A DNA stretch of 59,985 nt from contig NZ_BOON01000057.1 of assembly GCF_016863255.1 (NCBI RefSeq), positions 1 through 59,985 on the forward strand, in the 5' to 3' direction. This document shows, one piece after another, positions 8,405 through 43,384 of this stretch. Both the position numbers and the translations under genes were made by a program. Below the pieces are notes generated by a model that had not been told where the DNA came from, ran no database searches, and saw only the letters and a program-made list of their open reading frames with translations. This stretch comes from Planosporangium mesophilum (GTDB lineage Bacteria > Actinomycetota > Actinomycetes > Mycobacteriales > Micromonosporaceae). Each line of letters begins with the position of its first letter. Position 1 is the first letter of the stretch.

Positions 8405-8592
8405 AACGATTTGATTGACGAACGGCTACGGTGCGGATGGCTGATCGTGAACAGTCCTTGCGGTGGATCTACGGGCGGGCCCTACCGCGTGCGAGAACGG
8501 ATCGCGGGGCCGGCCGGGAGGGCGTACCTGATGTTGTGGCGTGAGCGGACGACGGGATTGGTCGGCTGCATGGAACTAAGGGGGAGGTGCCC

Positions 8593-25440: not shown

Positions 25441-25724
25441 GCTTCCCCTTACGCGATTACGGTATGGCGCACTGTACAACCGCCCTGTATTCGCGGGGCC
25501 GTGTCGGTGGGACGGCGGACGTGCGAGCGGAGCACCTTGACGGTCGGAAACCGGTCAACCTGTCACAGGGCGACAGAGAAGGGTAACGACCGCAAAGCTC
25601 CACGGCCTTCGGCCGACCGTACGATCACGGCGTTGCGTCGGATCGTGATATCACGATTGCCGATGGTTACGGCGTCGGGGCCGCTGTCGTGCGACGGTGC
25701 CTCGACCGACGTTCGGAGGGGCAT

Positions 25725-27332
25725 GTGGCGCGGCGTCGCGGTCTAATCGCGCAGATCCAGCGGGAGCACGCACGACAGGTGCGGGCCTCCCAGCAGGCGC
25801 AGGCGGCCTACTACCGCCAGCAGCAGGCGATGCGCCGGGCTGCCGAACAGGCAGCCAGAGCGGCCCAACGCGCGGCCGCCGTAGACGAGCGTGAGCGCAA
25901 ACGGCTGTATCTGGAAGCGCGAGCCGCGGAGGTCGCAGCCAACAACGCCGACCTGCAGGCGCACCTTCAGGAACTCGACAGCCTGCTGGCGGCGACCCTC
26001 GACGTCGACGACCACATCGACTTCACGAAGTTGAAGAGGCGGGCGCGTCATGCACCGTTCAGTCCAGGACAGCTCGGTATGCCCATCCCTCCGCCGGACT
26101 GGAGTCGATTCGAGCCGCCGGCCCCGACCGGCCTGAGCAAGCTGTTCGGCAAGTCCACCTACGACCGGCAACTGGCTCTCGCTCGCTGGCAGTTTTCCGA
26201 TGCTCAAGCACAGCACGGGGCAGCCGAACAGGACCGCCAAGGCCGGCTCGCAGCGGCTCAGGCGGAGTACCAGGAGCGGTGCCGGCGGGCTGAAGCCGAG
26301 ATCGCCGCGCACAACGCCGAGGTCGACACGTTCGCCGCCGCGTTCGCCGCTGCCGAGCCTGCTGCCGTCGTGGACTACTTCGGCATGGTGCTCGCCAATT
26401 CGGTCTACCCCGATGACTTCCCGCAGAACTACCGGCTCGCCTACGTCCCCGAGTCACGTCAGCTCGTCGTGGAGTACGAGCTGCCCGGTCTGGACGTCGT
26501 GCCTTCGGTCAAGGAGTACCGCTACGTCAAGGCGCGCGACGAGATCACATCGACGGCGCGGCCAGCCAAGGAGACCAAGGAGCGGTACGCCGGCGTCGTC
26601 ACGCAGGTGACGCTGCGGACGATGCACGAGCTGTTCGAATCGGACCGGGCACCCCTGGTCGACACGATCGTGTTTAACGGAGTCGTCGACACCGTCGACC
26701 CCGCAACCGGTCAGTCGATCCGGCCGTGCCTGGTCACGCTGCGGACCACGCGGGACGAGTTCACGAGCCTTAACCTCGGCAAGGTCGACCCCGCCACGTG
26801 CCTTCAGCACCTCAACGCGTCGGTGTCCAAACGCCCTGAAGCCCTCGCCCCGGTACGTCCGGTGCTCGAGTTCGACATGGTCGACAAGCGCTTCGTCGAC
26901 GAGGTGGACGTGCTAGCCGACCTCGATCACCGTCCCAACCTGCTCAAACTGACTCCGACCGAGTTCGAGAGCCTGATCCAGAACCTCTTCACCAAGATGG
27001 GGCTGGACACCAAGCAGACCAGGGCGTCGCGCGACGGTGGCGTCGACTGCGTGGCGTTCGACCAGCGTCCGATCTTCGGCGGCAAGGTGGTCATCCAGGC
27101 CAAGCGGTACCGCAACACGGTCGACGTGTCGTCGGTGCGGGACCTGTTCGGCACCGTGCAGAACGAGGGCGCGTCCAAGGGCATCCTGGTCACGACCAGC
27201 GGGTACGGCCCGGCTTCGTTCGCGTTTGCCTCCGGCAAGCCCCTGGAGCTGATCGACGGGTCGAACCTGCTGTACCTGCTCGCCGAGCACGCCGGTATCA
27301 CGGCTCGGATCGACCCGAGCGAGCTGGATTGA
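25725..27332 (+). CDS. Mrr-type restriction endonuclease with coiled-coil N-terminus
   Basis: The 535-aa protein starts with a long Gln/Ala/Arg-rich coiled coil (about residues 5-85) and ends with an Mrr_cat nuclease domain (about 410-525). The catalytic residues are visible: E in PTEFESLIQNLF, D441 in DGGVDCVAF and Q458-A-K460 in VVIQAKRY. QxK replacing ExK is usual for Mrr. A middle region of some 250 residues is of unknown fold. Mrr-type enzymes cut modified or foreign DNA, and no methyltransferase lies nearby, which fits a type IV-like activity. The GTG at 25725 has GGAGGGG four bases upstream; a GTG 12 codons earlier is possible. The next gene starts 31 bases downstream, suggesting an operon. 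Confidence 0.88.
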   Translation: MARRRGLIAQIQREHARQVRASQQAQAAYYRQQQAMRRAAEQAARAAQRAAAVDERERKRLYLEARAAEVAANNADLQAHLQELDSLLAATLDVDDHIDFTKLKRRARHAPFSPGQLGMPIPPPDWSRFEPPAPTGLSKLFGKSTYDRQLALARWQFSDAQAQHGAAEQDRQGRLAAAQAEYQERCRRAEAEIAAHNAEVDTFAAAFAAAEPAAVVDYFGMVLANSVYPDDFPQNYRLAYVPESRQLVVEYELPGLDVVPSVKEYRYVKARDEITSTARPAKETKERYAGVVTQVTLRTMHELFESDRAPLVDTIVFNGVVDTVDPATGQSIRPCLVTLRTTRDEFTSLNLGKVDPATCLQHLNASVSKRPEALAPVRPVLEFDMVDKRFVDEVDVLADLDHRPNLLKLTPTEFESLIQNLFTKMGLDTKQTRASRDGGVDCVAFDQRPIFGGKVVIQAKRYRNTVDVSSVRDLFGTVQNEGASKGILVTTSGYGPASFAFASGKPLELIDGSNLLYLLAEHAGITARIDPSELD

Positions 27333-27363: not shown

Positions 27364-28557
27364 ATGAGCGAACAGCGAGCCAAGATCACCGTCGACGTGG
27401 CGGGCTGGCCGCCGATCAAGAACGAGGCGACCTCGCTGCTGGCTGCCGGCCACCGGCAGAGTGCCAGGGTGCATGCGCTGCTCGACGCGACCGGTACGGC
27501 CGCGCAGCGGGTGGGCTGGGTGCCGGTCACCGCCGATATCGCCTTGGACCTGGTCGTACGCGGTCCGGGACGGCCGCCGGGTGATGCGACGAACTTCCTC
27601 GGCGGTATCGGTGACGTCCTGCAGGACAAGACAGCCGGCCGGAACCTAGACCTGACGCACCTGGGGGACCTGAGTACGGTCGCGCTCTACCGCGACGACC
27701 GGCAGATCCGGCAGATCAGTTATCGCGAGGAACCGGCCGCCGAGCCGTCATACTCAGTTCGGATTACGGTGCTGGACGCCGCTGAGCCTGTTGCTACGAC
27801 GGTGGGACCGTGGCAGAAGGCGGAGGCCGAGGAGAGCGCCAACGCGCGCGGCCGACGTGTCATCGCGGCGCTGGCCGCGAAGGGCGTCCAACTCGGCTTT
27901 ACGGTCGCGCACGAGTACCCGGTGCAGGGTGGTCGGCTCGATCTCGTATGGCTGATGCCGACGTTGAGTGCACTGCCGGGTGCGCCGGGGGAGGTGCCGA
28001 TCGTCGGCTTCGAGATCGAGTCGTCCTGGCGGACCCGTAAGCACCTCAAGGGTGACTACCTCAATCTTCATGACCTGGGCGCGGCGCTCGGGGCACTGGT
28101 CCTCCTCGGTGACGGCGCGGACGTCGAGGCCACCCGCCGATTCGCAGAGACTCTGGTGGATCGCCCCGGGCCTCGTGTGCTGGTCTGGTCGGAGCAGGAC
28201 GTGGAGACCCTAGTCCGTGGCGGCCAGATAGCCGACCGAACGCCGACACTGTCGGTCACAGAACCGCGCCCCGAGCCGCCCGCCGGAAGGCACGTCGGAA
28301 AGTTCCAGGCGTTGTGGGACTGGCTACGCGACCAGGCGAGCGACCGCGTGGCGGTGACGTTCAGCGAAATCGAAGAAGTAATCGGCATGCCGCTGCCACC
28401 GTCCTGTCGTAAGCACCCCGCCCACTGGTCTTCGTACGACGGCAGCACCATCGCGCGGGCCATCCAGGACGCCGGCTGGGTTGCCACGAGGGTCAATCTG
28501 CGGGACCAGACTGCCGTATTCGAGCGACGGACCGCCGCCCGCGCTGCCCGCCGCTGA
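27364..28557 (+). CDS. RusA-like/nuclease-like protein with C-terminal DUF7662 domain
   Basis: The 397-aa protein appears to have three parts. Residues 45-145 resemble RusA Holliday-junction resolvases (GDATNFLGGIGDVL, then LYRDDRQI, a D..N / D / DD pattern). Residues 165-285 look like a PD-(D/E)XK variant, with D193 in GRLDLVW and E217-I-E219 in VGFEIESSW, followed by KGDYLNL; Glu replaces the usual Lys. Residues 325-390 form a second DUF7662 domain (TFSEIEEVIGMPLPPS, WSSYD, AIQDAGW, TAVFER). The first two folds are judged by eye and uncertain; the DUF7662 match to the protein at 8593-9369 is clear. The ATG at 27364 lies close after the Mrr-type gene, with a purine-rich ribosome site (GAGGAG) upstream. 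Probably a nuclease that acts with the Mrr protein. Confidence 0.72.
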   Translation: MSEQRAKITVDVAGWPPIKNEATSLLAAGHRQSARVHALLDATGTAAQRVGWVPVTADIALDLVVRGPGRPPGDATNFLGGIGDVLQDKTAGRNLDLTHLGDLSTVALYRDDRQIRQISYREEPAAEPSYSVRITVLDAAEPVATTVGPWQKAEAEESANARGRRVIAALAAKGVQLGFTVAHEYPVQGGRLDLVWLMPTLSALPGAPGEVPIVGFEIESSWRTRKHLKGDYLNLHDLGAALGALVLLGDGADVEATRRFAETLVDRPGPRVLVWSEQDVETLVRGGQIADRTPTLSVTEPRPEPPAGRHVGKFQALWDWLRDQASDRVAVTFSEIEEVIGMPLPPSCRKHPAHWSSYDGSTIARAIQDAGWVATRVNLRDQTAVFERRTAARAARR

Positions 28558-29691: not shown

Positions 29692-32600
29692 ATGGGTCGG
29701 CTGCTGCCACCCAATCTCGAGCTTGCCCGCGAGCTGCTGTCCGCGCGCGGGTCGCTGTCGCCTGACGAGCTCGCCGCCGCGCTCCGCGACAGCGGTGTCG
29801 TATTGAGCGCGGCGCGACTGGCCAAGCTGCCGGACCGGTACCCGGACGCCTTCGCCCTCGACGAGCGCGGACACCTGGTGCTTCCCGACTCCCACCGGGA
29901 CGCCGAGAACGATCACGCGGACGAGTCAGCCGGTGCCGAGGACTCCGAGGGACCTGCCTGGCTGAGGGTCGAGCGACCGCCGGCGATCTCCATCGAGGAC
30001 CTGGTCTTCATCGCCACCCGCCAGCCCGCGGCTGACGTCGCCGCGCTGCGACTGCGCGACGGGCGTGCGGTGCTGATCCCCGGCGGCCCCGCCCAGGCCG
30101 CCAAGGTTCGGGAGTTCGCGGACGGGGCTGACGGCGTCGTCTGTTACGGGGCGGTACCCGACGGGTCCACCGTGCTGGCGGACCTGCCCGGCGCGCTGAT
30201 CGACCTGCGGCTGCTCGCGCTGCTCGACAAGCCCGACCGGCCGTGCCGGCGGCTGTCGGAGCTGTGCGCCGCCCTTGGCGTCGAGCTGCGCGACGGTCTC
30301 GTCGAGGCGGCGCGGGCCACCGCCGAGTGCCTTCGGATCCTGGTCGAAAAGTCCGACCTGTCGGACGTCTCGTGGCGGCTGGCCGCGGCCTGTCTCGTCG
30401 CCGGCGGCTCGGACCTGGTCCGGGTGCTGCCGGCCGTGCCGTTGCCGCGGGAGGCGACGGACGGCATCGAGTGCGCCGTGGACCCGCTGCTCGCCCTGCC
30501 CGAGACGGCCACGCACGCGCCGGGCACGGCGTACGAGGCGGTACGCGACGCGTTCGCCAGGCTGGGGGACTTCGGGTACGCGCCGCGCCGCTCGCAGCGG
30601 GAGATGGCCGACACGGTCGCCGGTGTTCTCGACTCCGGTGGCCTGCTCGCGGTCGAGGCACCCACCGGCACCGGGAAGTCCCTCGCCTACCTCGTGCCCG
30701 CGTCCGGCCGGGCGGCGCGCCCCCGCCGACCTGTGGTCGTCGCGACCGCGACCAAGGTGCTGCAGCAGCAGCTCCGGCGCGACGTCGCCAGGCTGCAGCA
30801 ACAGCAGCTGTTCCGGGTACCGTTCCGGCAGCTGTTCGGCGTCGCCAACTACATCTGCCCGCGGGAGCTGGCCAACGGCCTGCACTCGTCGCAGCCCGAC
30901 GCCGGGCCGGAGCACTGGCTGGCCCTCGCGGTGGCCGTCCGCGCGCTGGCCACCGGGGCCACCGGGGTGTGGGACGAGGTGGCCGACGCCGACGTGGCCC
31001 GCGACCGGCCGGGCTATGCGGCCACCCGGTCGATCCTGCGCACCGACTCCGACTCCTGCGAGCGCGCCGAGTGCGAATGGGCCGCGAAGTGCCCGCTGTT
31101 CACCCGTCTCGCCGGGATGGCCGAGCGTCCCGGGGTCGTCGCCGTCAACCATGCGCTGGTCGCGGCCTGGGCCAAGCTGGCACGGGAGGGCGTGCCGAGC
31201 CCTGGTGACGTCCTGGCGGCCGGGGTCACCGACCTGATCTTCGACGAGGCGCACGAACTCGAGGACTCACTGACCAGCGCCTGGACCGAGTCGGTGGGCC
31301 GCGTCGAGATGGTCGCGCTCGCCGCCCGCCTCGATGGGCGGACCGGGCTCGACCGGCAGTTGCGCAGGCTGGCCAAGCGCGGCGTCGACCTGCGCGGCGA
31401 GCACAGGCTTCCCCTCCTCGGCCGGCACCTGCTCGCGGGTACGAAGAAGCTCACCGACACGGTCGACGAGTACCTGCACGAGTACGGCGGGAGCGCCCGC
31501 TCGGCGGTCCTGCGTGCCGGGATCGTCCGGGGCCGACCGGAGTACCGGCAGGTCTGGGACGCCACGATCGATCTCGACCGGACCCTTCAGCAGGCGCTCC
31601 TGGCGCTGACCGCCGTCGCCGAGGCGGGCCGCGACGTGTTGGCGACGGCGCCACACCGGGTCCGCCGCCTACTGCGCAGCGTCGTCGTACGCGCCACCGG
31701 CGCCTCGCGGGTGGTTGAGAAGACCCGCGAGATACTCGGCCATCTCAGGAACCTAGGCGACGAGCACCTGTGGGTGTACCGGCTGTCGGAGGACCCGGAG
31801 AGCCGGGAGAAGCGGGAGAGTCGGAAAGACCCCGAAAATCCGGAGGGGCCGGTCGACTGGGCCTTCGAGTGCATTCCGATCGACGTCAGCACCGCGTTCG
31901 CCAACGGTATCGTCGCTCCCGCCCGCAGCGTCAGCCTGACCAGCGCCACGCTCACCACCGGCGGGACGTTCGACTTCCTCCAGTCCCGACTGGGTGTACG
32001 GGTCGAGGCCGGCAGCAGCGAACCCGGGGTCTTCCAGGGCAAGCTCCTGGAGAGCCCGTTCCACCACGACCGGCAGTCCGCCGTCGTCCTCACCAGCCAC
32101 CTCCCGGTACCGGTGCCGAGCCAGGAACAGGAGTTCGTCGAGGAGTTCGCCCGCGACCAGGTCGGGTTCCTGTCGCTGACCGGCGGGAAGGCGCTCACGC
32201 TCTTCGCCGCCCGCAAACGCATGGAGGCTGTCGCCGACCTCGTCCGCCAACGGGCCGCCGACCTGGAGCAGCGTGGCGTGCAGGTGCTACTGCAGGGCGA
32301 GGCGGGCCGCACGGAGATCTCCGAGCGGTTCCGGACCGAGCCGGGGACCGTGGTCTACGGGCTGCGCTCGTACTGGCAGGGCTTCGACGCTCCCGGGGAG
32401 ACGCTGAGCTACCTGGTCATCGAGAAGCCGCCCTACCCGCATCCGGACGACCCGGTGGTCGCCGCGCGGGTACGCGCCATCGCCGACCGTGGGGGAGACC
32501 CGTTCCTCGAGTATGTGGTACCCAAGACGGCGATTCTGTTCACCCAGGGCTTCGGCCGGCTCATCCGAACCGAGAACGACCGCGGCGTCGCCCTGGTCTG

Positions 32601-34896
32601 CGACCGGCGGATGCAGTCGCCCAGCACCGCCAACCGGCTGCTGCTGTCGACCCTGCCCGGCCCGGAGGTGCACTACGCGCTCGACCGGGACGACGCCTGG
32701 CGGTACGCGCTGCGCTTCGTCACCGGCGAGGATCCCGACCTGTCGGACGCCCTGGCGCTGGCCGGTAGCGAGGTCGACGCGATTCTCGACCGGTTGCGCC
32801 TGGTCGACGGTGAGGATCCCGAAGCCAAACTGCGCGAGGCGGCCCGCCTGCTGTTCGGCATAGAGCACCTGCGCGACGCCCAGCTCGAACTCATGATCGC
32901 CCACCTGCGCGGCGAGGACACCCTGGGTCTGCTGCCCACCGGCAGCGGGAAGTCGCTGTGCTTCCAACTGCCGGCACTGATTCGGCCCGACGACCGGGCG
33001 ACGGTCGTGGTCAGCCCGCTCGTCGCGCTTATCAAGGACCAGCTCGACGACCTGCGCGGTCGCCACGGCATCTCCCGCGTCCAGGGCATCACCGCGAATA
33101 CGTCCACCGCCCTGCGTACAGAGATCCTGCGGGACGTGGCGGCGGGAAAGGTGCGTTTGCTGTACGTGTCCCCGGAGCGGCTCGTCCGCGACCCGGTCCT
33201 GCGCCGTGCCCTGGAACGGCAGGAGCTGGCGGCGCTGGTGGTCGACGAGGCGCACTGCATCAGCGACTGGGGCCACGACTTCCGGCCGGAGTTCCGGCAG
33301 GTGGCTGCGGCGGTCGCGGATCTGGGACGGGCGCCGCGGATGGCTTTGACCGCCACCGCCACCCGGCCGGTGGCTGACGACATCAGCAGGACCCTCGAAC
33401 TCGACGCGCCGGTCCGGGTCGTCCAGCCGTCCGACCGCCCCAACCTCCGGTTCCGCGTCGTCCAGGTGTCCGGCGAACGGGAGCGCGCCCGGGAGCTCCT
33501 GCGCATCGCCACCGCGATGGGGGAGACGCCCGGGATCGTGTACGCGTCCCGACGCGCGGTCACCGAAGAGGTCGCGGCGCTGCTGCGGCGGGCGGGTCTC
33601 AAGTCCCGGCACTACCACGCCGGCATGGTCCCCGAGCAGCGCGAAGCCGTGCAGGACGACTTCTTCGCCGGTACCACCCAGGTCGTCGTGGCGACCAAGG
33701 CGTTCGGGATGGGCGTGAACAAGCCCGACATCGGCTGGGTGGTGCACTACGACCTGCCGGAGTCGCTCGACGCGTACGTCCAGGAGGCCGGGCGGGCGGC
33801 GCGCGCCGCGGATTTGCAGGGGGAGTGCGTCCTGCTCTACAGCGGCGCCGACGTGCGGCGCCGCCGGTCGCACCTGACCGACGACGCCGGAGGCAAGCGG
33901 CTGGCCCACGTCACCGCGCTGCTCGGCCAGCTCGCCGGCCAGCACAGCCGCGGCGCCGACGTCGTCTTCGACCCGGAAGAACTGGCCGACGCCATCGGGG
34001 TCGACGTTGACGAGTTGAACGTGCTCCTCGCCTGGCTGGAACGTACCGGCGCGCTGGAGCAGCAGCCCGACTGCTCGGCCCGGGGGACTGTCCACGTCGG
34101 ACTGCGTGAACCGGAGGACGCCGAGGAGCGGCGCCGGTTCCGCGAGCTGTCGGTACTGCTGAAGTTCCGGCCGCAGGTCGGCAGCCGCATCGACTTCGAG
34201 CGGCTGCGCGAGGAGCATGGGCTCGACCCCGACGCGCTCGAACGCGACCTGGTCGCCTGGTCGCTCGACCGGCTGGTCACCTTCTCCTCGTCGCAGCGGT
34301 ACCGCCGGGTCCGGCTGCTGTCGCAACGGGTCGATGAGGTGGCGCTGCACCGCGAGGTGAGCCGGTGGACCGCCTGGCAACGCCGGCAACTCGATGCAAT
34401 GGTCTCTTACGCCCGCGACGGTGGCTGCCGGCGCGCGGCGATCGTCAGCTACTTCGGGTTCCCGCCGCGGGACTGCGAGCCGGACGACGAGGCGTGCGAC
34501 GGCTGCGGCGGCCGCTCGCCCTGGCTCGACCTGCCGGCGTCGGCGGTACCCGACCCGGAGCTGCTGGTCAACGTCGACCTGGTCGTCCTCCAGGCGGTGG
34601 CGTGGGCCGGAACCCTGACCAAGGGACGGTACGGGGAGTTCGGCCTGAAGCAGGCGGTCCTCGGCGCCGAGACCATGCCCGGCGGCCGTCCCCTGGGCGC
34701 CGGCCTGCAGCGCTGCCCCCAGTTCGGTGCGCTGCGCTACGTGCGCGCCAACGACCGGCGCTGGGACGAGGCGGTCCGTGGCCTCATCAAGGCCGGCCGG
34801 ATCACCCGCGAGGACGTCCAGCGGCAGACCGGCCAGTACACGACCCTCACCCTCACCCCCGCCGGCAGGCAGATACTCGGAGGTCGACATGGCTGA
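29692..34896 (+). CDS. DinG/XPD-RecQ double helicase fusion
   Basis: This 1734-aa protein fuses two helicases. After a 290-residue N-terminal region of unknown fold comes a DinG/XPD-type Fe-S helicase. It has Walker A with K329 (APTGTGKS), cluster cysteines C389, C456, C461 and C467, and DEAH at 518-521. Then a RecQ helicase follows, with Walker A K1087 (PTGSGKS), DEAH at 1185-1188 plus the aromatic loop CISDWGHDF, and a zinc-binding unit at C1579, C1595, C1602 and C1605. No HRDC domain is visible. DinG enzymes move 5'-3' and RecQ 3'-5', so the fusion could translocate on both strands. Both ATPase sites look intact. The ATG at 29692 follows GAGGGTGAGGGGA. A charged Glu/Arg/Lys linker (about 703-720) separates sub-domains. 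The end overlaps the SNF2 gene by eight bases. Confidence 0.9.
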   Translation: MGRLLPPNLELARELLSARGSLSPDELAAALRDSGVVLSAARLAKLPDRYPDAFALDERGHLVLPDSHRDAENDHADESAGAEDSEGPAWLRVERPPAISIEDLVFIATRQPAADVAALRLRDGRAVLIPGGPAQAAKVREFADGADGVVCYGAVPDGSTVLADLPGALIDLRLLALLDKPDRPCRRLSELCAALGVELRDGLVEAARATAECLRILVEKSDLSDVSWRLAAACLVAGGSDLVRVLPAVPLPREATDGIECAVDPLLALPETATHAPGTAYEAVRDAFARLGDFGYAPRRSQREMADTVAGVLDSGGLLAVEAPTGTGKSLAYLVPASGRAARPRRPVVVATATKVLQQQLRRDVARLQQQQLFRVPFRQLFGVANYICPRELANGLHSSQPDAGPEHWLALAVAVRALATGATGVWDEVADADVARDRPGYAATRSILRTDSDSCERAECEWAAKCPLFTRLAGMAERPGVVAVNHALVAAWAKLAREGVPSPGDVLAAGVTDLIFDEAHELEDSLTSAWTESVGRVEMVALAARLDGRTGLDRQLRRLAKRGVDLRGEHRLPLLGRHLLAGTKKLTDTVDEYLHEYGGSARSAVLRAGIVRGRPEYRQVWDATIDLDRTLQQALLALTAVAEAGRDVLATAPHRVRRLLRSVVVRATGASRVVEKTREILGHLRNLGDEHLWVYRLSEDPESREKRESRKDPENPEGPVDWAFECIPIDVSTAFANGIVAPARSVSLTSATLTTGGTFDFLQSRLGVRVEAGSSEPGVFQGKLLESPFHHDRQSAVVLTSHLPVPVPSQEQEFVEEFARDQVGFLSLTGGKALTLFAARKRMEAVADLVRQRAADLEQRGVQVLLQGEAGRTEISERFRTEPGTVVYGLRSYWQGFDAPGETLSYLVIEKPPYPHPDDPVVAARVRAIADRGGDPFLEYVVPKTAILFTQGFGRLIRTENDRGVALVCDRRMQSPSTANRLLLSTLPGPEVHYALDRDDAWRYALRFVTGEDPDLSDALALAGSEVDAILDRLRLVDGEDPEAKLREAARLLFGIEHLRDAQLELMIAHLRGEDTLGLLPTGSGKSLCFQLPALIRPDDRATVVVSPLVALIKDQLDDLRGRHGISRVQGITANTSTALRTEILRDVAAGKVRLLYVSPERLVRDPVLRRALERQELAALVVDEAHCISDWGHDFRPEFRQVAAAVADLGRAPRMALTATATRPVADDISRTLELDAPVRVVQPSDRPNLRFRVVQVSGERERARELLRIATAMGETPGIVYASRRAVTEEVAALLRRAGLKSRHYHAGMVPEQREAVQDDFFAGTTQVVVATKAFGMGVNKPDIGWVVHYDLPESLDAYVQEAGRAARAADLQGECVLLYSGADVRRRRSHLTDDAGGKRLAHVTALLGQLAGQHSRGADVVFDPEELADAIGVDVDELNVLLAWLERTGALEQQPDCSARGTVHVGLREPEDAEERRRFRELSVLLKFRPQVGSRIDFERLREEHGLDPDALERDLVAWSLDRLVTFSSSQRYRRVRLLSQRVDEVALHREVSRWTAWQRRQLDAMVSYARDGGCRRAAIVSYFGFPPRDCEPDDEACDGCGGRSPWLDLPASAVPDPELLVNVDLVVLQAVAWAGTLTKGRYGEFGLKQAVLGAETMPGGRPLGAGLQRCPQFGALRYVRANDRRWDEAVRGLIKAGRITREDVQRQTGQYTTLTLTPAGRQILGGRHG

Positions 34897-37800
34897 GCGG
34901 ACCAGCGTCGAGCGCACCATCACCGAGGAGATGCTCGACAGCGGTGAGATCCAGCTCGGGCCGGTCGAACAGCAGAGACTCGGCATTCCCGACCGCTCGA
35001 CCGCGCTCACCCTGGTCGCGGACGGGGACGAGCTGTCCGTTTCCTGGGCGGGCGGCCGCCGCCGGTTGACCGGGGAGCCGCTGCTGGAGTACCTCCAGGA
35101 CACCGGCCGGATCGGCGGCCTCGTCCGGCTGGAACGGCGCGACGGCGGGCAGATCGAACTGGTGGTACTGGCCAACCGCGGCAGCACCCTGTCGACGGGA
35201 TTCCACTGGGCCGCCCCGCCGGCCGTCGCGCCACAGCGGGCGGCCGCGCCGGCCAGGCGCACCCGGCGCACCAATCGGAGCGAGCGGTACCGCCTGCGGC
35301 AGCGCGACGAGTACGGCTGGGAAGGCGGCATCGGTTTCCTCAAGGAGGCCCGGGCGCACCTGCTCGACGCGCTCAGGACCGGCGGCTGGGACCCGGCCGA
35401 GGCGGTGGAGGCACGCCTGGAAGGCGAGCGGCTGGCCACCCTCGACCAGTTCGACGAGCTGCTCGCCATCGACGTGGCGAACATCGAGCACATGCCGCAC
35501 CAGGAGGCCGCCGCCCGTACCGTGCTGACCCGGATGAACGGGCGCGGCATCCTCGCCGACGAGGTCGGTCTGGGCAAGACCGTCGAGGGTGGCCTGGTCC
35601 TCAAGGAACTGCTGCTGCGGGGGCTCGCCGAGCGGGTACTCATCATCTGCCCAGCGCCGCTGCGCGACCAGTGGCGTGACGAACTGCGCGACAAGTTCGG
35701 CGAGGACTTCCTGGTCATCATGTCGGGCCAGAGCCCGGACTTCACGCGGGACCGGCTGATCATGACGCACCAGCTGGCCCGTACCAACGCGGACCAGTTC
35801 AAAAAGCCGTTCGACCTGGTGATCATCGATGAGGCGCACCGGCTGTCCGGAGCGGGCGCCCACGTCACCCGGGAAAAGCTCGGCAAACTGGTGGCCGAGG
35901 CGTCCCGGGCGCTGTTCCTCACCGCCACGCCGGTGCAGAACAACCTGCTCGAGCTGTACCGCCTCGTCGAGCTGCTGCGTCCCGGCACGTTCCGGTCCGA
36001 GCGGGACTTCACCCGGCGCTTCATGGACGCGTCCGACCCGCGCCGCCCAGTCAACGCGCCCGAGTTGCGCAAGCTGGTCAGCAGCGTCGTCGTGCGTACC
36101 ACCCGGCAGCAGGCGGGCCTGGACAAGGTACGGCGGATGCCGCCGCTGGACCTCGCCATCGAGCTGAGCGCCCCTGAGCGGCAGCTGTACGACCTGCTCG
36201 TCGACGCGCTCCGGCACAAGATGACGCAGCCGGGCGACGCGATGCGCCGCCGCCAGCTCGCGCTGCGGTTGACCGCGTCCCCGCGCGCCGTCCTCAAGAG
36301 CGCGCTGCGGATCGCCGGCAAGCACCCGGATCCGGCGGTCCGGCAGGTCATGACCGAGATCGGGCACCTCGCCGGCGACATCCACCACACCGCCCGCGAG
36401 CAGGCCGCGCTGCAGGTACTGCACCAGTGGCTGGACGAGCACGGGCGGGTGCTGCTGTTCACCCAGCACACCGACACCCTCGACGGGCTGCTCCGGCTGC
36501 TGGCCGCCGAGGGCATCCCGGCCGTGCCGTTCCACGGCGGGATGGCGCATGCCGCCAAGGGCAAATCGGTGGCCGACTTCCGGGCCGGAGCGGCGAAGGT
36601 ACTGGTCTCCACCGACGCCGGCGCGGAGGGCGTGAACCTGCAGGTCGCCAACTGCGTGCTCAACTACGACCTGCCTTGGAATCCGATGCGGATCGAGCAG
36701 CGCATCGGACGTGTGCACCGGCTCACCCAGACCCGCGACGTCTACATCGCCAACCTGTTCGCCCGCGACACCGTCGACGAGTCCGTCTACCGCCTGCTGC
36801 ACGACAAGCTCGCCATGTTCGAGCTGCTCTTCGGGCAGGTGGTCACGGTGCTGGGGGAGCTGGAGGGCAAGCAGGACGCCAGCATGGAGAACCGGGTGCT
36901 GGAGGCGCTGTACGCCAAGAGCGACGCCACCATGCAGCGCCGTCTCGACGAGCTCGGCAGCCAGCTCGAACAGGCGCGCAGCCGGGCCATGCACATGATG
37001 CGGGCCGACAACGGCCTCAACGACTGGATCGCCCAGCGCAACCAGGAGCGCAGGGAACGGGCCGCGCAGGGCGAAGCCCGCGAGCTGCTGCCGGACCCCG
37101 CCAAACGGGCCCGCCGCCGGCAGCAGGACGTGGAGCGGTTCGTCCGCCGGTTTCTGAAGCTCGCTGGCGGTGAGGAGACCTACGCCGCAGACGGCTTCGT
37201 CACCGTCAAACTCCCAGCGGACCTCGCCACCGCGCTGGACGACCGCGAAGAGCTGCACCTGGCGTTCACGAACGCGGCGCTCGAACACCACCCCGAGGCG
37301 GAGCTGTGCGTGGTTGGCTCGGAGGTCTTTGACGAGCTGCTACGGGTACTGCGGGAGCGCGGCGACCTCACCGGCTCGGTACGTACCCTGCCGGCGGTCC
37401 ACGCCGACCCGGTCACGCCGCACGCGCCCACGGTGCGGCTGGCGGACCGGCGGGTCGGGCCGACCGGCGACTGGTCGGCCCGGGTCACGTACCGGGTACA
37501 GGACAGCTCGTCGAGCGGTACCCAGGAGCTCGTCACGGTCCAGGTCGGCCCACCGGTCACCAGCGGTCACGAGCGCGAGCCGCTCGTCGACGGCGCAGGC
37601 CTGCCGGCCGAGCTGACCGCTGCGGACGTGCTGCGCGAGGTCGATCGCCGAGCACTGGTCGACCTCGGCGTCAAGCTCGACCAGGCGCGAAGCGCCGAGC
37701 AGCAGCGCGAGGACGAGGCCCGGGAGCGGATGGTCGAGAACCTCCGCGCCCAGGCCGCGGAGATCGACGCGGCGCTGCCGTTCAGCTGGGGCAACGGCAC

Positions 37801-40800
37801 CCAGGAGCTGACCGAACGCCGCAACCAGCTGCGGCGGGCGATCGAGCAGGCGCGCAGGCCGGTCGCGATCGGCGGGAACATCGAGATTCGAGCCGAGCTC
37901 CTCGCCGTTGAGTTCCACGGTTCGGACGAGCTGCGGGTGGTCGAGCGCTGGGAGCACGTCAACGGCGCGGTCCGGGAGATCCGGTACCCGTGGACCGGAG
38001 ACCTTGCCGACCACTTTTTCACGTGCGAGGCCTCCGGCGTCACCGTCGGCACCTTCGCGCTGTGCGCTGACGCCCACGTCGTCGATGCGTCGGCGCTCGA
38101 CCGGTGCGAGATCTGTGACCTGGACCGGTGTGCCGCGTGTGGGCCGGCCAGGGGCGTGGCCGCCTGCCCCGGCTGCCAGCGGCGCGCGTGTGGCGGGTGC
38201 CGGCCGCACGGCATCCTGTGCACGCAGTGCCTGAAGCCGGAGCGGGCACCCGACCTCGACAGCGCCTGGGAGCGCGGCTGGCGGCTGGGCAGCGGTGCGC
38301 AGCTCCTCGTCGGAGCCTGCCACGCCGTCCTGGTCCGGGAGGACGGCGCCAAGGTCGACATCGTGCCCGACGACGACCTGACCGATCCGGTACGCGCCCG
38401 GCTCCGCGGCCTCGCCGGCCGGCTGAACCTGCCGGCCGGTACCGGCCTGGTAGCCTCCGCCGCCCGCCCGCCCGTTGCCGACCTGGTCGCCGGTTCGGCC
38501 TGGGCGGACGCGGAGGAGTCTGTCTGGTGGACCTGGACCCCCGACGCCGACGGCACCGTCAGCGCCGAGGTGGCGGACCTGCTGCCCGAGCTGTCCGGCC
38601 CGGACGCGGTGGGGGAGAGCAGCCTGGGCCTGGCTTCCCTGCTGGCGATGCTGCGCCGTAGCGGTGAGGTACCGGCACCGCCGGCCGTGGCGGCGATACC
38701 GTTCACCGTGGTCCGCCGGGTGGACTGGCAGGAGGGTCAGTTCGTCTACCGGGAGCTGTGGCACGACGGCGACCGGGAGCCGGTGGAGGCGGCACGGGAC
38801 AGTCAGGCGCTCACGGTGAGCGCCCACGACGTGCTGCCGTTCTGCCAGCCGGTGGCGGCGACCAGAATCGGCCCGGTCACGGTGGAGATCGACCGGCTCC
38901 ACCGTTCCTACGTGGTACTCCTCACGGACGGCTCGCACACCTCGACGAGGTTCGTCCCCGGAGGGGCGGGTGCCGCCCTCCACGTCGAGGAGCAGTTGGC
39001 CAGAATGCTCGCCGACGCCGAGCTGCCCGCGGACCGGGTCGTGGTCCGTCACCCGGGGACGGGTACGAGCGGCCCCCGGTACGTCAAGGCGGCTGCGGGA
39101 ACCACGGTCAGTCGTACGGTGGCGACCGCGTGGGCGCTGCTCACGACCGACGCCGGTGACCCGATGACCGATCCGGTCAGTGACGCTGCCCCGAGCGGAG
39201 AGTTCACCGGCGCCGAGCTGTGGACCAACGACAGCCTGGCCGGTGCCCTCTGCGAGCTCGCCGGACCGGTGGTCCCCGTGTCGGTGGCCCCCTGTGTCAC
39301 GGTCGACGAACGGTGGCGGTCCGACCATGGCGAAGCGACCCGGGCATACCTGGTGGCTCCGGCCGCACCGGTTGATGCCGCTCTGCTCGCCGGCCGCTCT
39401 CTCGTGCACCCCGAGGAGTCGGTCCTCGGCCGGCTCAACGACGGCGGCCCGGTCGAGAGCCTGGTCGGCATGGACGGTCACGGGCACCTGTACGCGCCGG
39501 AGCGGGCGGTCGAGTGCCCGGTATGCGCCGAGACCTACTGTCCCGCCTGCGGTGAGGAAGGCATGATCGCGGGCTGTCGCACCTGCGAGCGGCCGGCCTG
39601 CGGCCGGTGCCGGTCCTGCTTCGGGGGCGAACCGCAGCGGACTGCCGAGGACTGCGAGCGGTGCGGCGACACCTCCTGCCACGACTGCGGCCGGTACCTG
39701 TCGACCGTGGCGTGTGAGCTGTGCGCCCGCAGCGTCTGCGCCGCCTGCGTCGATGGCAGGCTGTGCCGTACCTGCTGGGCTCTCGCCCCGGCCACCGCTG
39801 GCGACCCCGCCGCCCTTCCTGCGGAACTGCTCGCTGACGGGCTCACGGTGGCCATCGGGCACGACGACGGCGGCTCCGTCGCACTGCTCGTCGGCGCGCA
39901 CCGCACCGAACTCGCCGTGTTCTCCGCGTCGGGGCTGCACCGCTGGGAGACCGTACGCGAAGAGCCCGCGGAGGTCGTCGAGGTACGGCTCGCGGCCGCG
40001 CGGCTGGCCGGCTCAGGCGACGTCGACCTGCGCACGCTGACGGTGCCGCCGGTGCGAACCGACCCGGACGTGCTCGTCCTGGAACGGCACACCGACGAGA
40101 AGCTGTTGTGGGCGGTGGAGTCCGACGGAGAGCGGCGTGCGGGAAGCGCCACTTCGCCGGCCGGCGTACGGGATCCGCAGAAGCCGTCGACCGACCTCGT
40201 CGCGCAGTTGGCCCGCACCCTGACCGGCGACAGTCCGCTCGATCGTGTTCCCGTCCCCGCTTCCGGTTCCCGGGTCATGAACATCCAGCGACGCGCCCGG
40301 GAGTTGTCCATCGCTGAAGGAACCGCCGCGGTCACCGCGTGCCTGGAACCGGTGGAGAAGTCGTTCGTCATCGACGAACGCGGTCTTGTCCGGCGTACCG
40401 TCACGGGCTCGGACCTGAGCGAAGAGGTCGCGAGCTGGGAGACGGCCGACATCGCACCGGAATGGGCCGTCGCCGGCTGGTTCCCCGCGCCCGAGCTTGT
40501 CGCCATGGCCGAACTCGACGAGTACACCGCGGTCATCGCCGCTGTCGGTGAGTACGGGCTGCTGGGGGTGCGGAAGGCCGACGAGTCACCCCGGTGGTCG
40601 ATGCTCGCCGACGACGGACGGTTGGATCTGGTCCGAGCCGCCCTGGGGCAGGTGCTCCTAGGCCGGCCGGCACTTCTCTCGATGGGTCGGAGCACCCGAC
40701 CCGGTCACGTGCGTGGACCGAGGATCATTGGAGCGGAGCTGCGGAACAGGCGTACCGCGCCGCAGCTCGTCGAGGGTACCGATTCGCGGGCTGCGGAAAC

Positions 40801-41467
40801 GGTGACCGCGATGCACCAAGCGCTCGCCGACCATTCCCCAGGCGACGAGCCGCGGGCGCCGTACGGCCAGGGGAGCCTGCCCGCTCCGCTGGCTGCCCGC
40901 CTGCGCGAGCGGGTCGCGGCCCGTCCGCTGGAGCGGCTGACGCGCGACCTCGGACTGCACGTCGAAGAGCAGTGGTGGCTGCCCGTGGATGAGATCGTCA
41001 CGGTCACCTACCGGCTGCTCCCCGGGCAGGTCGACGGCTATCTGACGGACGCGGTGACCGGAAAGCCGCTGCGGGTCGCTCGGCTCTGCCGGTCCCGTCA
41101 CGTGGTCGAGCGGCCGGACCGATGCGCGTCGTGCGATGAGCCGACGTGTGCGGTGTGCCCCGACCGGGTACAGCGATGCAGCCTGTGTGTCCGTACCGTC
41201 TGCGGGCGCTGCATCGCCGCGGCGGACGGCCGTTGCATCGCCTGTGTCGACTTCCGCAAGCTCGGCATGCTCGAGCGCAGGCGCGTCGGAAAGCCACTGT
41301 CCGCGTCCGTGTGGCAGGCGAAAGACACCCACACCACGATCACGGTCATCCGGGCGCGAGAGCAGTGGACGCTGGAGCGGTCGGGCCAACACGGCACTGT
41401 CGCGTTCCCGCTGAATGGCCCACGGCTCAGTCTGTTCCAGAGCTCGGTGGCCGGGACCGGTCGCTAG
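34889..41467 (+). CDS. Giant SNF2-family helicase with three Cys-rich (zinc-finger-like) clusters
   Basis: The 2192-aa protein has a full SNF2/SF2 ATPase in its first third: Walker A K230 (DEVGLGKTVEGG), DEAH at 314-317, FLTATPVQNN, and motif VI at 604-611 (QRIGRVHRL). Beyond residue 700 no enzyme domain is recognised. Instead, three dense cysteine clusters occur at about residues 1073-1114 (10 Cys), 1543-1629 (19 Cys) and 2067-2119 (11 Cys). Their CxxC pairs are mostly spaced like zinc ribbons or B-box/RING-type fingers. They are separated by beta-rich regions of 400-450 residues that may be repeats of one another. The ATG at 34889 (AGGTCGAC before it) overlaps the DinG-RecQ stop, so the two proteins are probably made together. 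A nucleic-acid sensor or scaffold role is inference. Confidence 0.88.
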   Translation: MAERTSVERTITEEMLDSGEIQLGPVEQQRLGIPDRSTALTLVADGDELSVSWAGGRRRLTGEPLLEYLQDTGRIGGLVRLERRDGGQIELVVLANRGSTLSTGFHWAAPPAVAPQRAAAPARRTRRTNRSERYRLRQRDEYGWEGGIGFLKEARAHLLDALRTGGWDPAEAVEARLEGERLATLDQFDELLAIDVANIEHMPHQEAAARTVLTRMNGRGILADEVGLGKTVEGGLVLKELLLRGLAERVLIICPAPLRDQWRDELRDKFGEDFLVIMSGQSPDFTRDRLIMTHQLARTNADQFKKPFDLVIIDEAHRLSGAGAHVTREKLGKLVAEASRALFLTATPVQNNLLELYRLVELLRPGTFRSERDFTRRFMDASDPRRPVNAPELRKLVSSVVVRTTRQQAGLDKVRRMPPLDLAIELSAPERQLYDLLVDALRHKMTQPGDAMRRRQLALRLTASPRAVLKSALRIAGKHPDPAVRQVMTEIGHLAGDIHHTAREQAALQVLHQWLDEHGRVLLFTQHTDTLDGLLRLLAAEGIPAVPFHGGMAHAAKGKSVADFRAGAAKVLVSTDAGAEGVNLQVANCVLNYDLPWNPMRIEQRIGRVHRLTQTRDVYIANLFARDTVDESVYRLLHDKLAMFELLFGQVVTVLGELEGKQDASMENRVLEALYAKSDATMQRRLDELGSQLEQARSRAMHMMRADNGLNDWIAQRNQERRERAAQGEARELLPDPAKRARRRQQDVERFVRRFLKLAGGEETYAADGFVTVKLPADLATALDDREELHLAFTNAALEHHPEAELCVVGSEVFDELLRVLRERGDLTGSVRTLPAVHADPVTPHAPTVRLADRRVGPTGDWSARVTYRVQDSSSSGTQELVTVQVGPPVTSGHEREPLVDGAGLPAELTAADVLREVDRRALVDLGVKLDQARSAEQQREDEARERMVENLRAQAAEIDAALPFSWGNGTQELTERRNQLRRAIEQARRPVAIGGNIEIRAELLAVEFHGSDELRVVERWEHVNGAVREIRYPWTGDLADHFFTCEASGVTVGTFALCADAHVVDASALDRCEICDLDRCAACGPARGVAACPGCQRRACGGCRPHGILCTQCLKPERAPDLDSAWERGWRLGSGAQLLVGACHAVLVREDGAKVDIVPDDDLTDPVRARLRGLAGRLNLPAGTGLVASAARPPVADLVAGSAWADAEESVWWTWTPDADGTVSAEVADLLPELSGPDAVGESSLGLASLLAMLRRSGEVPAPPAVAAIPFTVVRRVDWQEGQFVYRELWHDGDREPVEAARDSQALTVSAHDVLPFCQPVAATRIGPVTVEIDRLHRSYVVLLTDGSHTSTRFVPGGAGAALHVEEQLARMLADAELPADRVVVRHPGTGTSGPRYVKAAAGTTVSRTVATAWALLTTDAGDPMTDPVSDAAPSGEFTGAELWTNDSLAGALCELAGPVVPVSVAPCVTVDERWRSDHGEATRAYLVAPAAPVDAALLAGRSLVHPEESVLGRLNDGGPVESLVGMDGHGHLYAPERAVECPVCAETYCPACGEEGMIAGCRTCERPACGRCRSCFGGEPQRTAEDCERCGDTSCHDCGRYLSTVACELCARSVCAACVDGRLCRTCWALAPATAGDPAALPAELLADGLTVAIGHDDGGSVALLVGAHRTELAVFSASGLHRWETVREEPAEVVEVRLAAARLAGSGDVDLRTLTVPPVRTDPDVLVLERHTDEKLLWAVESDGERRAGSATSPAGVRDPQKPSTDLVAQLARTLTGDSPLDRVPVPASGSRVMNIQRRARELSIAEGTAAVTACLEPVEKSFVIDERGLVRRTVTGSDLSEEVASWETADIAPEWAVAGWFPAPELVAMAELDEYTAVIAAVGEYGLLGVRKADESPRWSMLADDGRLDLVRAALGQVLLGRPALLSMGRSTRPGHVRGPRIIGAELRNRRTAPQLVEGTDSRAAETVTAMHQALADHSPGDEPRAPYGQGSLPAPLAARLRERVAARPLERLTRDLGLHVEEQWWLPVDEIVTVTYRLLPGQVDGYLTDAVTGKPLRVARLCRSRHVVERPDRCASCDEPTCAVCPDRVQRCSLCVRTVCGRCIAAADGRCIACVDFRKLGMLERRRVGKPLSASVWQAKDTHTTITVIRAREQWTLERSGQHGTVAFPLNGPRLSLFQSSVAGTGR

Positions 41468-41630: not shown

Positions 41631-41834
41631 ACCGACCCCTGACCTTCGTCCTGGGCGCGCGAGCTTCCTGTCGAGGGTTCTCGGACCTGGACGCTGCTCG
41701 ATAGAGTGGCGCCGCGACACGCTCAGCGACCGGTACGTGACCACTGGCAGGCTCCACGCGGCTACGGGGGAGGGGCGCGGTGATACGGGGAGATTTGCGC
41801 GGCGTACGGAGTCACGGCGCGGGATCGGGTGCCC

Positions 41835-42155
41835 ATGTCGTCCGGTGACGGCATCGGCGTCACGCCGTCGGATCTGATCGCGCACGCCGGGCACGTGGAG
41901 GCGATCGGCGACCGGGTCGCCACCGCCAGGCAGGCCGGCGCCGCGGTGCGGCCGAGCATGACCGCGTACGGCAAGCTGTGCACGATCGTGCCGACGCTGC
42001 TCGCCGGCCTGCAGGACATGGTGGTCGACGGCATTGACGCCGCCGCGCATTCGCTGCACGACTCCGGCCAGCGGTTGCGCACCGCGGCCGATGGTTACCA
42101 GTCGGCCGATGACCACGCCCAGGCCCGCCACCAGCGGGTACGGGGCCCGCAGTGA
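41835..42155 (+). CDS. WXG100/ESX-like small secreted partner protein
   Basis: The 106-aa protein is helical and Ala/Asp-rich, with the pattern of type VII secretion substrates related to EspB/DUF2580 (SDLIAHAGHVEAIGDRV, then IDAAAHSLHDSG). There is no signal peptide, as expected for ESX substrates. It probably pairs with the toxin encoded next, whose start overlaps its stop (GTGA at 42152-42155). ATG at 41835 is preferred; GTG at 41829 is in frame. No strong ribosome site was seen. Confidence 0.75.
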   Translation: MSSGDGIGVTPSDLIAHAGHVEAIGDRVATARQAGAAVRPSMTAYGKLCTIVPTLLAGLQDMVVDGIDAAAHSLHDSGQRLRTAADGYQSADDHAQARHQRVRGPQ

Positions 42156-43384
42156 CGGTCAACCCGCTCGTCGCCGGCCGGCTGGACAGCCCGCCCGACG
42201 CCTGGTCGGGGGTGTGGATCGCCGAAGACATCGAGCTGATCGCCCAGGGCGTCAAGAACGGCAGCTGGATCGACACCAGTCTCGGCGTGGTCGGTGCCGG
42301 CCTGGACGCGCTCGCGATCGTGTCCGACCCCATCGGTGCGCTGCTGCAGTACGGCGTCGCCTGGATCATCGAACACGTCAAGCCGCTCAGCGAAGCGCTG
42401 GACTGGCTGGCCGGCGACCCCGGCCAGATCGCCGGGCACGCCCAGACCTGGCGCAACGTCGCCGCCTCGCTGCGTGATGACGCCGCCGACCTCGACCGGG
42501 CGGTGCGCTGGGACGTCACCGACTGGACGGGGACCGCCGGTAACGCCTACCGCACCTGGGCTGCCCAGCAGTCCCAGGCGATCGGTGGGCTGGCCAAGGC
42601 CGCCGACACCATGGCAGTACTTGCCGAAGGTGCCGGTGCGCTGATCGCTGCCGTCCGGATCCTGGTTCGCGACGCGATCGCCACCTGCGTGTCGCGGCTG
42701 GTCGTGTACGCCGCCGAGGTGGTCGGCTCGCTCGGCGTCGCCACCCCGCTGGTCGTCGAACAGGTCACCACCCTCGTCGCCTCCTGGGCGGCGAAGATCG
42801 CCCGCTGGCTCAAGGGGCTGCTGTCCAGCCTGCGGGAACTGGGATCACTTACCCGCCGCCTGGGCGAACTCATCGAAGAGCTGAAGAAGATCATCAACCG
42901 GCTTCGTGGCGGTGGCAGGTCAGCGGAGTCGCTCGCCGGCGAGGCGGACAGGCGCTTGTACTTTCACCATTCAGAGGCTGATCCGCTGGCGCGGTGGGGA
43001 TCGGCCCGTGAGACCCATCTGCAGGAGTGGGACAACGCCATCCGGGAGGCAGAGGACGCGGGAGTGGAAGTGATCTTCCGTCAGGGCGGCCTCGCCTACG
43101 GCCCGAGCCCTTCCCCCGGTCACCCCGGCGTGCTGATACTCGACCCGGACGCGTCCTATGGCGCGTTGCTACATGAGATGCAACACATGCGCGACGACCG
43201 AGCCGCTGGGTGGGCGGGCATGCGAGGCTGGTTCGAGGATCCGCACGTACGGTACGCCAACGAGGTGCGAGCGTACGAGCAGGAGATCCGGTACGCCGAG
43301 TCGATTGGAGACCATGAATCAGCTGCGAAGCTCACGGACCTGATACGCGAGGAGTACCGCAAGATTTTCGGAGAGACGCCATGA
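42152..43384 (+). CDS. WXG100-fold polymorphic toxin with C-terminal zincin-like domain
   Basis: The 410-aa protein has an N-terminal WXG100-like helical domain (about residues 20-165, with DWTGTAGNAYRTW), a hydrophobic or coiled central region (170-270) and a C-terminal domain (about 275-410). The last contains H341-E-M-Q-H345, the HExxH zinc-binding motif, within LLHEMQHMRDD. The architecture is that of type VII-exported polymorphic toxins, where the C-terminal domain is the toxic part and the adjacent gene gives immunity. The third zinc ligand is not obvious. A metallopeptidase activity is inferred from the motif. The stop overlaps the putative immunity gene (ATGA). Confidence 0.8.
   Translation: MTVNPLVAGRLDSPPDAWSGVWIAEDIELIAQGVKNGSWIDTSLGVVGAGLDALAIVSDPIGALLQYGVAWIIEHVKPLSEALDWLAGDPGQIAGHAQTWRNVAASLRDDAADLDRAVRWDVTDWTGTAGNAYRTWAAQQSQAIGGLAKAADTMAVLAEGAGALIAAVRILVRDAIATCVSRLVVYAAEVVGSLGVATPLVVEQVTTLVASWAAKIARWLKGLLSSLRELGSLTRRLGELIEELKKIINRLRGGGRSAESLAGEADRRLYFHHSEADPLARWGSARETHLQEWDNAIREAEDAGVEVIFRQGGLAYGPSPSPGHPGVLILDPDASYGALLHEMQHMRDDRAAGWAGMRGWFEDPHVRYANEVRAYEQEIRYAESIGDHESAAKLTDLIREEYRKIFGETP

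Follow-up and report, generated by a model that had tools for sequence, protein, structure and literature searches.

The Dpd system pairs an SNF2-like protein, DpdE, with a RecQ-like protein, DpdF, which to our knowledge has no DinG or exonuclease part. RapA-like SNF2 helicases are also components of DISARM (DrmD), ARMADA (ArmA), and BREX III (BrxHII), according to the portions of the source papers available to us (PMC12458937, PMC12839542), and the mechanism of ARMADA is reported there to be non-abortive (PMC12458937). In an actinobacterium, the defending helicase pair DruH-DruE of type III Druantia blocks circularization and replication of phage DNA, and in the accessible part of their paper its authors assign no canonical nuclease domain to either protein (PMC13316683). 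A three-domain DnaQ-DinG-RecQ fusion was named in Thermus thermophilus HB27 in 2005; the available text of that paper calls it unique and gives it no role in defense (PMC1274311). Here, we analyze a 59,985-base stretch of DNA (the window), which is an entire contig (NZ_BOON01000057.1) of the 6.62-Mb, 103-contig genome of the actinomycete Planosporangium mesophilum, and in which a relative of this fusion is followed by a gene for a giant SNF2 protein with three cysteine-rich modules. Because the two genes are kept together in distantly related genomes beside different defense systems, we consider that they probably form a two-gene defense system against phages or mobile DNA, endowed with three ATP-driven motors and no recognized active nuclease (rough probability 0.72). 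The basis for this reading is the pairing in six of six loci, the patchy spread, the differing defense neighbors, and SNF2-core scores that are best with defense helicases.

The fusion and SNF2 genes form a real unit. They adjoin in the same order in all six loci with readable surroundings that carry the window's type of fusion (type A), five of which belong to Micromonosporaceae (the window genome G000, Planosporangium flavigriseum or G002, G356, G428, and G444) and one, G962, to another family. The SNF2 gene follows in an overlapping frame in each of the five Micromonosporaceae, the 8-bp overlap seen in the window making translational coupling likely, and the overlap is 4 bp in G962. The pair is conserved far beyond chance, as identities of the fusion and SNF2 proteins reach 81% and 74% between the window and P. 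flavigriseum, and 50% and 35% between G356 and G962 (BLAST). In the window, the two longest open reading frames (ORFs) have a high-GC (guanine-cytosine) coding composition, with GC fractions by codon position of 0.77/0.49/0.91 for the fusion and 0.75/0.52/0.89 for the SNF2 protein. A previous sequence-only reading had delineated these ORFs as an operon of two overlapping large helicase genes; their extents, their overlap, and the co-occurrence of their homologs all bear it out. Of 153 gene calls compared in the sequence read around each pair, only these two genes recurred at every one of the six loci. Further flanking genes are shared by the window and P. flavigriseum loci, and three by those of G356 and G444. 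A GajB-like gene after the G356 pair, which has a relative beside DruE in G444 (35.7% identity), as well as 522/395-aa (amino acid) and 80/100-aa genes also common to G356 and G444, were rejected as third components because the other four loci lack them. Directly after the window pair lie EspC-like and WXG100-like genes of the type VII secretion type (41829–43384, plus strand). These were likewise not retained as part of the system: relatives occupy the same place beside the P. flavigriseum pair, and none was found in the sequence read around the pairs of G356, G428, G444, and G962.

The distribution of the pair is patchy, the figures given here being lower bounds drawn from family, genus, class, and phylum samples that overlap in part. 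A profile of the DinG-RecQ junction had 15 matches in 300 genomes of the family (E-value at most 1e-60), namely nine fusions and six proteins matching by their RecQ part only; five of the fusions are of type A (5/300 genomes) and four belong to a longer type B. In the genus of G356 (g4, 160 genomes), the SNF2 tail is intact in three genomes, the same three that have the type A fusion, and tail fragments are present in three further genomes without the fusion (E-value at most 1e-80). The fragments of G440 (L068, 8557–9524) and G521 (L069, 8514–9047), which correspond to the 3' end of the giant SNF2 gene in decayed form, adjoin relatives of genes flanking the G428 pair and are best described as remnants of decay in place; the tail remnant of G535 lies near a DrmMI relative. 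With the tail profile, 246 genomes of the class yielded the window's own genome and G962 only; with the junction profile (E-value at most 1e-80), 396 genomes of the phylum yielded the own genome and three other fusions (G596, G776, and G823), the first two of which are type B by tree. In a collection of genome contigs, no relatives were found with the whole SNF2 protein as query and only that of P. flavigriseum with the tail alignment, and the tail had no match in plasmids. Patchy spread and variable flanks, together with the related fusions carried by Thermus and Deinococcus plasmids, would also suit mobile-element cargo serving the element's own replication or transfer, such as the helicases of an integrative element. 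We regard this as very improbable, given that no tRNA was found in the window, that no integrase or relaxase appeared among the Pfam matches of the window stretches scanned, and that the six loci have no backbone gene in common.

Pfam recognized in the fusion the DinG C-terminal helicase (PF13307), DEAD (PF00270), Helicase_C (PF00271), and RecQ_Zn_bind (PF16124) domains, and its PDB sequence matches were RecQ over residues 1047–1401 and the DinG structure 6fwr (best stretch 296–530). A motif search retrieved Walker A, DEAH, and motif VI of both motors in the five Micromonosporaceae type A proteins and in G962, all six of which also keep the four iron-sulfur (Fe-S) cysteines of DinG and the four zinc cysteines of RecQ. 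Both ATPase sites therefore look intact, as had been claimed, and at the motif level so do all three motor cores of the pair. NCBIfam places the RecQ part in family TIGR00614 (344.7 bits over residues 1054–1410 for a subfamily cut-off of 219.8); the scores of the full DinG helicase with the DinG equivalogs PRK11747 and PRK08074 (279.2 and 269.3 bits) fall short of the cut-offs (598 and 789), and by these models we describe this part as a DinG-like domain, not as a DinG equivalog.

No Pfam family matched the first ~290 residues of the fusion. In an alignment of the window's type with the Thermus, Deinococcus, G188, and G962 fusions, these residues fall in register with the DnaQ/RNase_T exonuclease found at the N-terminus of the Thermus and Deinococcus proteins (Pfam RNase_T, E-values 9.8e-15 and 2.7e-18). 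Profile comparison of the N-termini joined type A to type B (probability 98%, E-value 1.8e-13), and type B to Thermus/Deinococcus (96%, 4.7e-9). Direct comparison of type A with Thermus/Deinococcus alone gave a weak probability of 1.8% (hhalign), and 14.9% was obtained with a three-row set including G188, so that the assignment of the type A N-terminus to an exonuclease domain is owed to the type B intermediate and to G962, not to direct comparison. None of the five Micromonosporaceae type A proteins has DxE or HxxxxD at the corresponding alignment positions, and they thus do not have the signature of DEDDh exonucleases. Both motifs are kept in G962 (VLDIE, HRAVSD), the sixth and most distant type A protein, in the T. 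thermophilus HB27 and Deinococcus fusions, and in five of six type B proteins, the remaining one (G383, whose start comes from a simple gene caller) showing HxxxxD alone. Their presence in G962 and absence in Micromonosporaceae indicate that the loss of the exonuclease residues took place within type A. We conclude from these alignments that the fusion starts with a DnaQ-type exonuclease domain devoid of the DEDDh residues in the window's lineage. What had been read as a DinG-RecQ fusion is indeed one, and its missed N-terminal domain makes it a triple fusion.

In the second protein, Pfam identified SNF2-rel_dom (PF00176) and Helicase_C (PF00271). The best PDB sequence match of the SNF2 core is RapA, and its best PADLOC scores are with the defense helicases BrxHI (246.5 bits) and DrmD (239.4 bits). 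With NCBIfam, all scores lie far below the cut-offs: DrmD_b (NF038318), 241.5 for 950; DpdE, 218.4 for 500; DrmD (NF038317), 209.7 for 610; RapA, 174.4 for 576. BrxHII/DrmD-like similarity extends to about residue 850 (best stretch 490–853 with the PADLOC BrxHII model), beyond which ~1340 residues are unrecognized; the sequence-only reading was correct about such a tail and overstated its length at 1500 residues. Its count of 40 clustered cysteines corresponds to those invariant in five homologs (12 + 17 + 11), and 38 (11 + 17 + 10) are invariant in six proteins, or 41 with three outside the clusters. Between the window and G962, identity is 60% in the SNF2 core, 34, 40, and 26% in modules 1–3, and 24% in each of the two stretches between them.

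Modules 1 and 3 aligned over 98 columns with an hhalign score of 72.3, for a maximum of 45.0 in 60 shuffles in which all columns but those of the cysteines were permuted, and on this test the two are homologous beyond their cysteines. Over the cysteine part and without a shuffle control, hhalign also aligned modules 1 and 2 (96.7%, 50 columns) and modules 2 and 3 (70.2%, 46 columns). These alignments imply that at least two of the modules are copies of a single one, which probably holds for all three. The modules are probably zinc-binding; they had no significant match to solved zinc domains, the insignificant ones including PHF5A, RING, and FYVE. Pfam searches of five tails at E-values up to 10 returned three families, each in one of the five members (best, B-box-like, 0.0092). 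A sequence test for internal beta-alpha repeats in the tail gave no support (probabilities of at most 2%), with just one 7-column match exceeding its 30 shuffles among the best 14 of 36 pairs. In Foldseek searches with two predicted models of the tail, none of 95 matches of the first reached an E-value of 0.001, and 1 of 653 did with the second, low-confidence model (best 8e-4). The best 50 of these 653 matches were all sliding clamps, with template modeling (TM) scores of 0.07–0.17; since the model is poor, we do not rely on a clamp-like fold.

By domain order and sequence similarity, the fusion belongs to a wider family of DnaQ-DinG-RecQ proteins with varying partners, which extends beyond the Thermus case of 2005. 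The HB27 protein (TT_RS10770, on pTT27) has the same three-domain order as the window fusion and its Fe-S and zinc cysteines, at ~31% identity over 1137 aligned positions. Unlike that of the window, its exonuclease motifs are intact, and the next genes encode 279-aa, 180-aa, and 514-aa proteins, with no SNF2 gene; within 16 kb, CRISPR-Cas genes flank it on either side. Plasmids of Thermus and Deinococcus carry fusions of 1649, 1644, and 1759 aa, each with other partners. The protein encoded after the Deinococcus fusion (L014, 18820–21480) shows weak similarity to the NCBIfam model "anti-phage protein ProA" (E-value 3e-4, far below the cut-off). Type B fusions (~1900–2100 aa) are followed by ~800-aa and ~1740–2050-aa proteins in G446, G383, G480, G294, G519, and G520. 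In G188, what follows is a relative of 812 aa and a 356-aa fragment related to the third protein; G776 has relatives of both partners in a different order. Operons of this type (L042, 8069–16501; L043, 3824–12535) are conserved in several actinobacteria and may represent a second undescribed system. The partner genes of G446 matched no Pfam or PADLOC family over its cut-off, and the G383 operon lies near pPIWI-RE genes. All fusion types may or may not stem from a single fusion event; in a RecQ tree of 27 rows, types A, B, and C each formed one clade, and the fusions separated from solo RecQs with a support of 58/71 only.

The pair lies in a defense island of the window (table 1), and the genes around it belong or are related to several defense systems, which differ between loci. 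The P. flavigriseum flank contains a relative of the window's type IV restriction gene; DrmMI, DrmA, DrmB, a type I methyltransferase, and PDC-S68 flank the G356 pair, LeoBC/LeoA the G428 pair, and DruE the G444 pair, and a LeoBC/LeoA relative lies upstream of the G962 pair (BLAST only). A small gene pair in the window (8587–9887, plus strand), the first gene of which has DUF7662, has relatives (L070, 11060–12174) adjoining the SNF2-tail remnant of G535 and is, by this recurrence, another island pair. As for the pair studied here, the choice previously left between defense and unusual DNA repair can now be sharpened toward defense by genomic context. DinG, RecQ, and SNF2/RapA are families of repair or transcription recycling, and AdnAB/AddAB-like genes are close by in the window, as would befit a lineage-specific complex acting on host DNA in repair or recombination (fork restart, removal of R-loops or G-quadruplexes). 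Such a complex seems unlikely to us: a spread limited to 5 of the 300 genomes from the family, decay to remnants in 3 of the 160 from genus g4, and four different defense contexts are unlike housekeeping, and the 34 kb of P. flavigriseum sequence read contain no relative of the AdnAB-like genes. Moreover, the host has a stand-alone RecQ (583-aa frame) and a stand-alone DinG (727-aa frame) elsewhere in its genome, so the fusion is not the sole copy of either.

The pair might instead be the effector half of a modification-dependent system of the DISARM, Dpd, or ARMADA kind, with its marking enzyme in trans or lost. This is suggested by the best scores of the SNF2 core with DrmD, BrxH, and DpdE models and of the RecQ core with DpdF models, by the association of SNF2-like and RecQ-like proteins in Dpd itself, and by DrmMI near the G356 pair and its relative near the G535 remnant. 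We find it doubtful, if somewhat less so than a repair complex: the NCBIfam cut-offs are missed widely, the six loci have nothing but the pair in common, and no methyltransferase model matched in any of the 37 window stretches scanned with Pfam, in line with the run of nuclease and helicase genes without a methyltransferase noticed earlier.

Table 1. Features of the pair and of its surroundings in the window.
Feature	Positions	Strand	Evidence or remark
Exo(degenerate)-DinG-RecQ fusion, 1734 aa	29692–34896	+	ORF; Pfam PF13307, PF00270, PF00271, PF16124; TIGR00614
Degenerate DnaQ/RNase_T-type (DEDDh) exonuclease domain, aa ~90–225	29959–30366	+	Alignment, profile comparison; DxE, HxxxxD lost
DinG/XPD-like helicase, aa ~295–990; Walker A 323, DEAH 518, motif VI 952	30574–32661	+	
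DinG predicted Fe-S cluster cysteines C389, C456, C461, C467	30856–31092	+	Motif search
RecQ helicase unit with zinc-binding site, aa ~1045–1610; zinc cysteines 1579, 1595, 1602, 1605	32824–34521	+	
Overlap of the two reading frames, 8 bp	34889–34896	+	Translational coupling likely
Giant SNF2/RapA-like protein with three cysteine-rich modules, 2192 aa	34889–41467	+	ORF; Pfam PF00176, PF00271; homologs in 6/6 loci
SNF2 motor core, aa ~195–650; DEVGLGKT, DEAH 314, QRIGRVHR 604	35471–36838	+	
Cysteine module 1, aa ~1040–1114	38006–38230	+	
Cysteine module 2, aa 1543–1629	39515–39775	+	
Cysteine module 3, aa 2067–2119	41087–41245	+	
ZacABC system, three genes	2178–8324	-	Near full-length PADLOC ZacC/ZacB/ZacA, 1141, 600.5, 454.6 bits
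PLD-ResIII-DUF3427 type IV restriction gene	12436–15522		
PDDEXK_1 gene (1033 aa) and UvrD+PDDEXK_1 gene (1099 aa), adjacent, AddAB/AdnAB-like	16999–23396	+	
Mrr-type gene	25689–27332		
Second DUF7662 gene	27364–28557		

A defense role of the pair is further suggested by the additional RecQ and DinG copies of the host and by the location of related fusions near pPIWI-RE genes (G383) and CRISPR-Cas genes (pTT27), and Actinobacteria have helicase pairs of comparable size that act in defense, such as DruH-DruE (PMC13316683). Beyond the pair being a defense module, the mechanism is one that we infer. The SNF2 protein, as a RapA/BrxHII/DrmD-like translocase on double-stranded DNA, would scan DNA, its cysteine-rich, probably zinc-binding modules recognizing a target or holding the complex together, and the DinG-RecQ protein would engage invading DNA at ends, gaps, or forks. 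DinG helicases move 5'–3' and RecQ helicases 3'–5', and in RecBCD the RecB and RecD motors move in one direction on antiparallel strands. Given the opposite polarities expected of its two motors, a single polypeptide could drive along both antiparallel strands the same way, as RecBCD does with separate subunits. In this lineage without the exonuclease residues, foreign DNA would likely be unwound, remodeled, or blocked, with help from the SNF2 translocase and its cysteine-rich modules, and this might stop replication or circularization of phage DNA, or expose it to host or neighboring nucleases. The ancestral fusion presumably had its own exonuclease; the window form, devoid of the catalytic residues, would have to act without them, or with nucleases acting in trans or hidden in the unrecognized tail.

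Several points weigh against the reading of the pair as a defense system of this kind. The precedent of helicase systems lacking a nuclease is contested between the available parts of PMC13316683 and PMC12458937; in the latter, type III Druantia is predicted to carry an active PLD-like nuclease domain, and ARMADA, which has several helicases, a Vsr nuclease. A nuclease could likewise be hidden in the SNF2 tail. The two AlphaFold2 models of this tail (five sequences) have mean predicted local distance difference test (pLDDT) values of 49.3 and 48.9, that is, low confidence. The flanking defense genes come from a scan of selected flank genes, without a background rate from random loci, and helicase models cross-match, which makes the PADLOC scores of the helicases themselves weak evidence. 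G823 may hold a type A relative, joined to type A in the RecQ tree at 81/81 on a long branch, on a 3.9-kb contig that leaves the partner out of view. Finally, bipolar motion, complex formation, and the DNA targets of the pair are predictions drawn by analogy. In a more specific version, a single polypeptide with two helicases of opposite polarity would descend from an exonuclease-helicase machine, would have lost its nuclease, and would have been joined by an SNF2 translocase whose long tail grips DNA by repeated zinc modules, perhaps with clamp-like beta-alpha folds, the whole forming a RecBCD-like three-motor machine that stops invaders by unwinding alone. We rate it much lower, as an improbable elaboration, in part because nucleases are predicted in the supposedly nuclease-less precedents in the accessible text of PMC12458937.

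If the pair is indeed a defense system, it would add one made of DNA motors without a recognized active nuclease, and the fusion presented in 2005 as restricted to a single Thermus strain would belong to a wider, partner-swapping family, with a cysteine-rich SNF2 protein in one group and unknown proteins of ~800 and ~1900 aa in the other. With its exonuclease residues still present in G962 but gone from Micromonosporaceae, the fusion would provide a natural series bearing on whether, and how, helicase systems stop phages without cutting DNA themselves.

Among the papers listed in searches of the openly licensed literature, outside which most subscription papers fall, no description of such a pair was found, and a term search of the available parts of PMC11078745, PMC9122126, and PMC10482375 returned nothing on it. 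The earlier remark that no described system with this pair was known stands, within that scope, for the pair, not for the three-domain protein, which had been noted in 2005 (available text of PMC1274311). The NCBIfam scores given above, together with that of DpdF (211.8 bits for a cut-off of 550), led us to reject membership in DISARM, Dpd, and RapA, and a type IV CRISPR DinG was rejected likewise (Csf4, 55 bits for 400). No deazaguanine gene, as would recall Dpd, appeared among the window's Pfam matches. Druantia DruE membership was also rejected, neither protein having DUF1998 (Pfam, E-value at most 0.01), and DruE was absent from the best 25 PADLOC families (of 37 and 50) for the pair's proteins.

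In Hachiman (HamAB), a helicase sensor acts with a partner, and the available portion of PMC12278908 presents sensing of DNA integrity as a plausible model; HamA is a nuclease, of which no equivalent was recognized in the window pair. DISARM, ARMADA, and BREX III have a RapA-like SNF2 helicase as here; by contrast with these systems, no YprA-type helicase, PglX-like methyltransferase, or PglZ is common to the six loci, and no match was found in them for the three-module cysteine tail. Type III Druantia likewise consists of two overlapping genes in an actinobacterium, encoding a giant superfamily 2 (SF2) helicase and a giant partner, as far as the accessible text goes (PMC13316683); its DruE is a DUF1998 helicase, unlike the proteins of the pair. 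Although it passes as a member of none of these systems, the pair would, in the best reading by analogy, work like DISARM, type III Druantia, or ARMADA.

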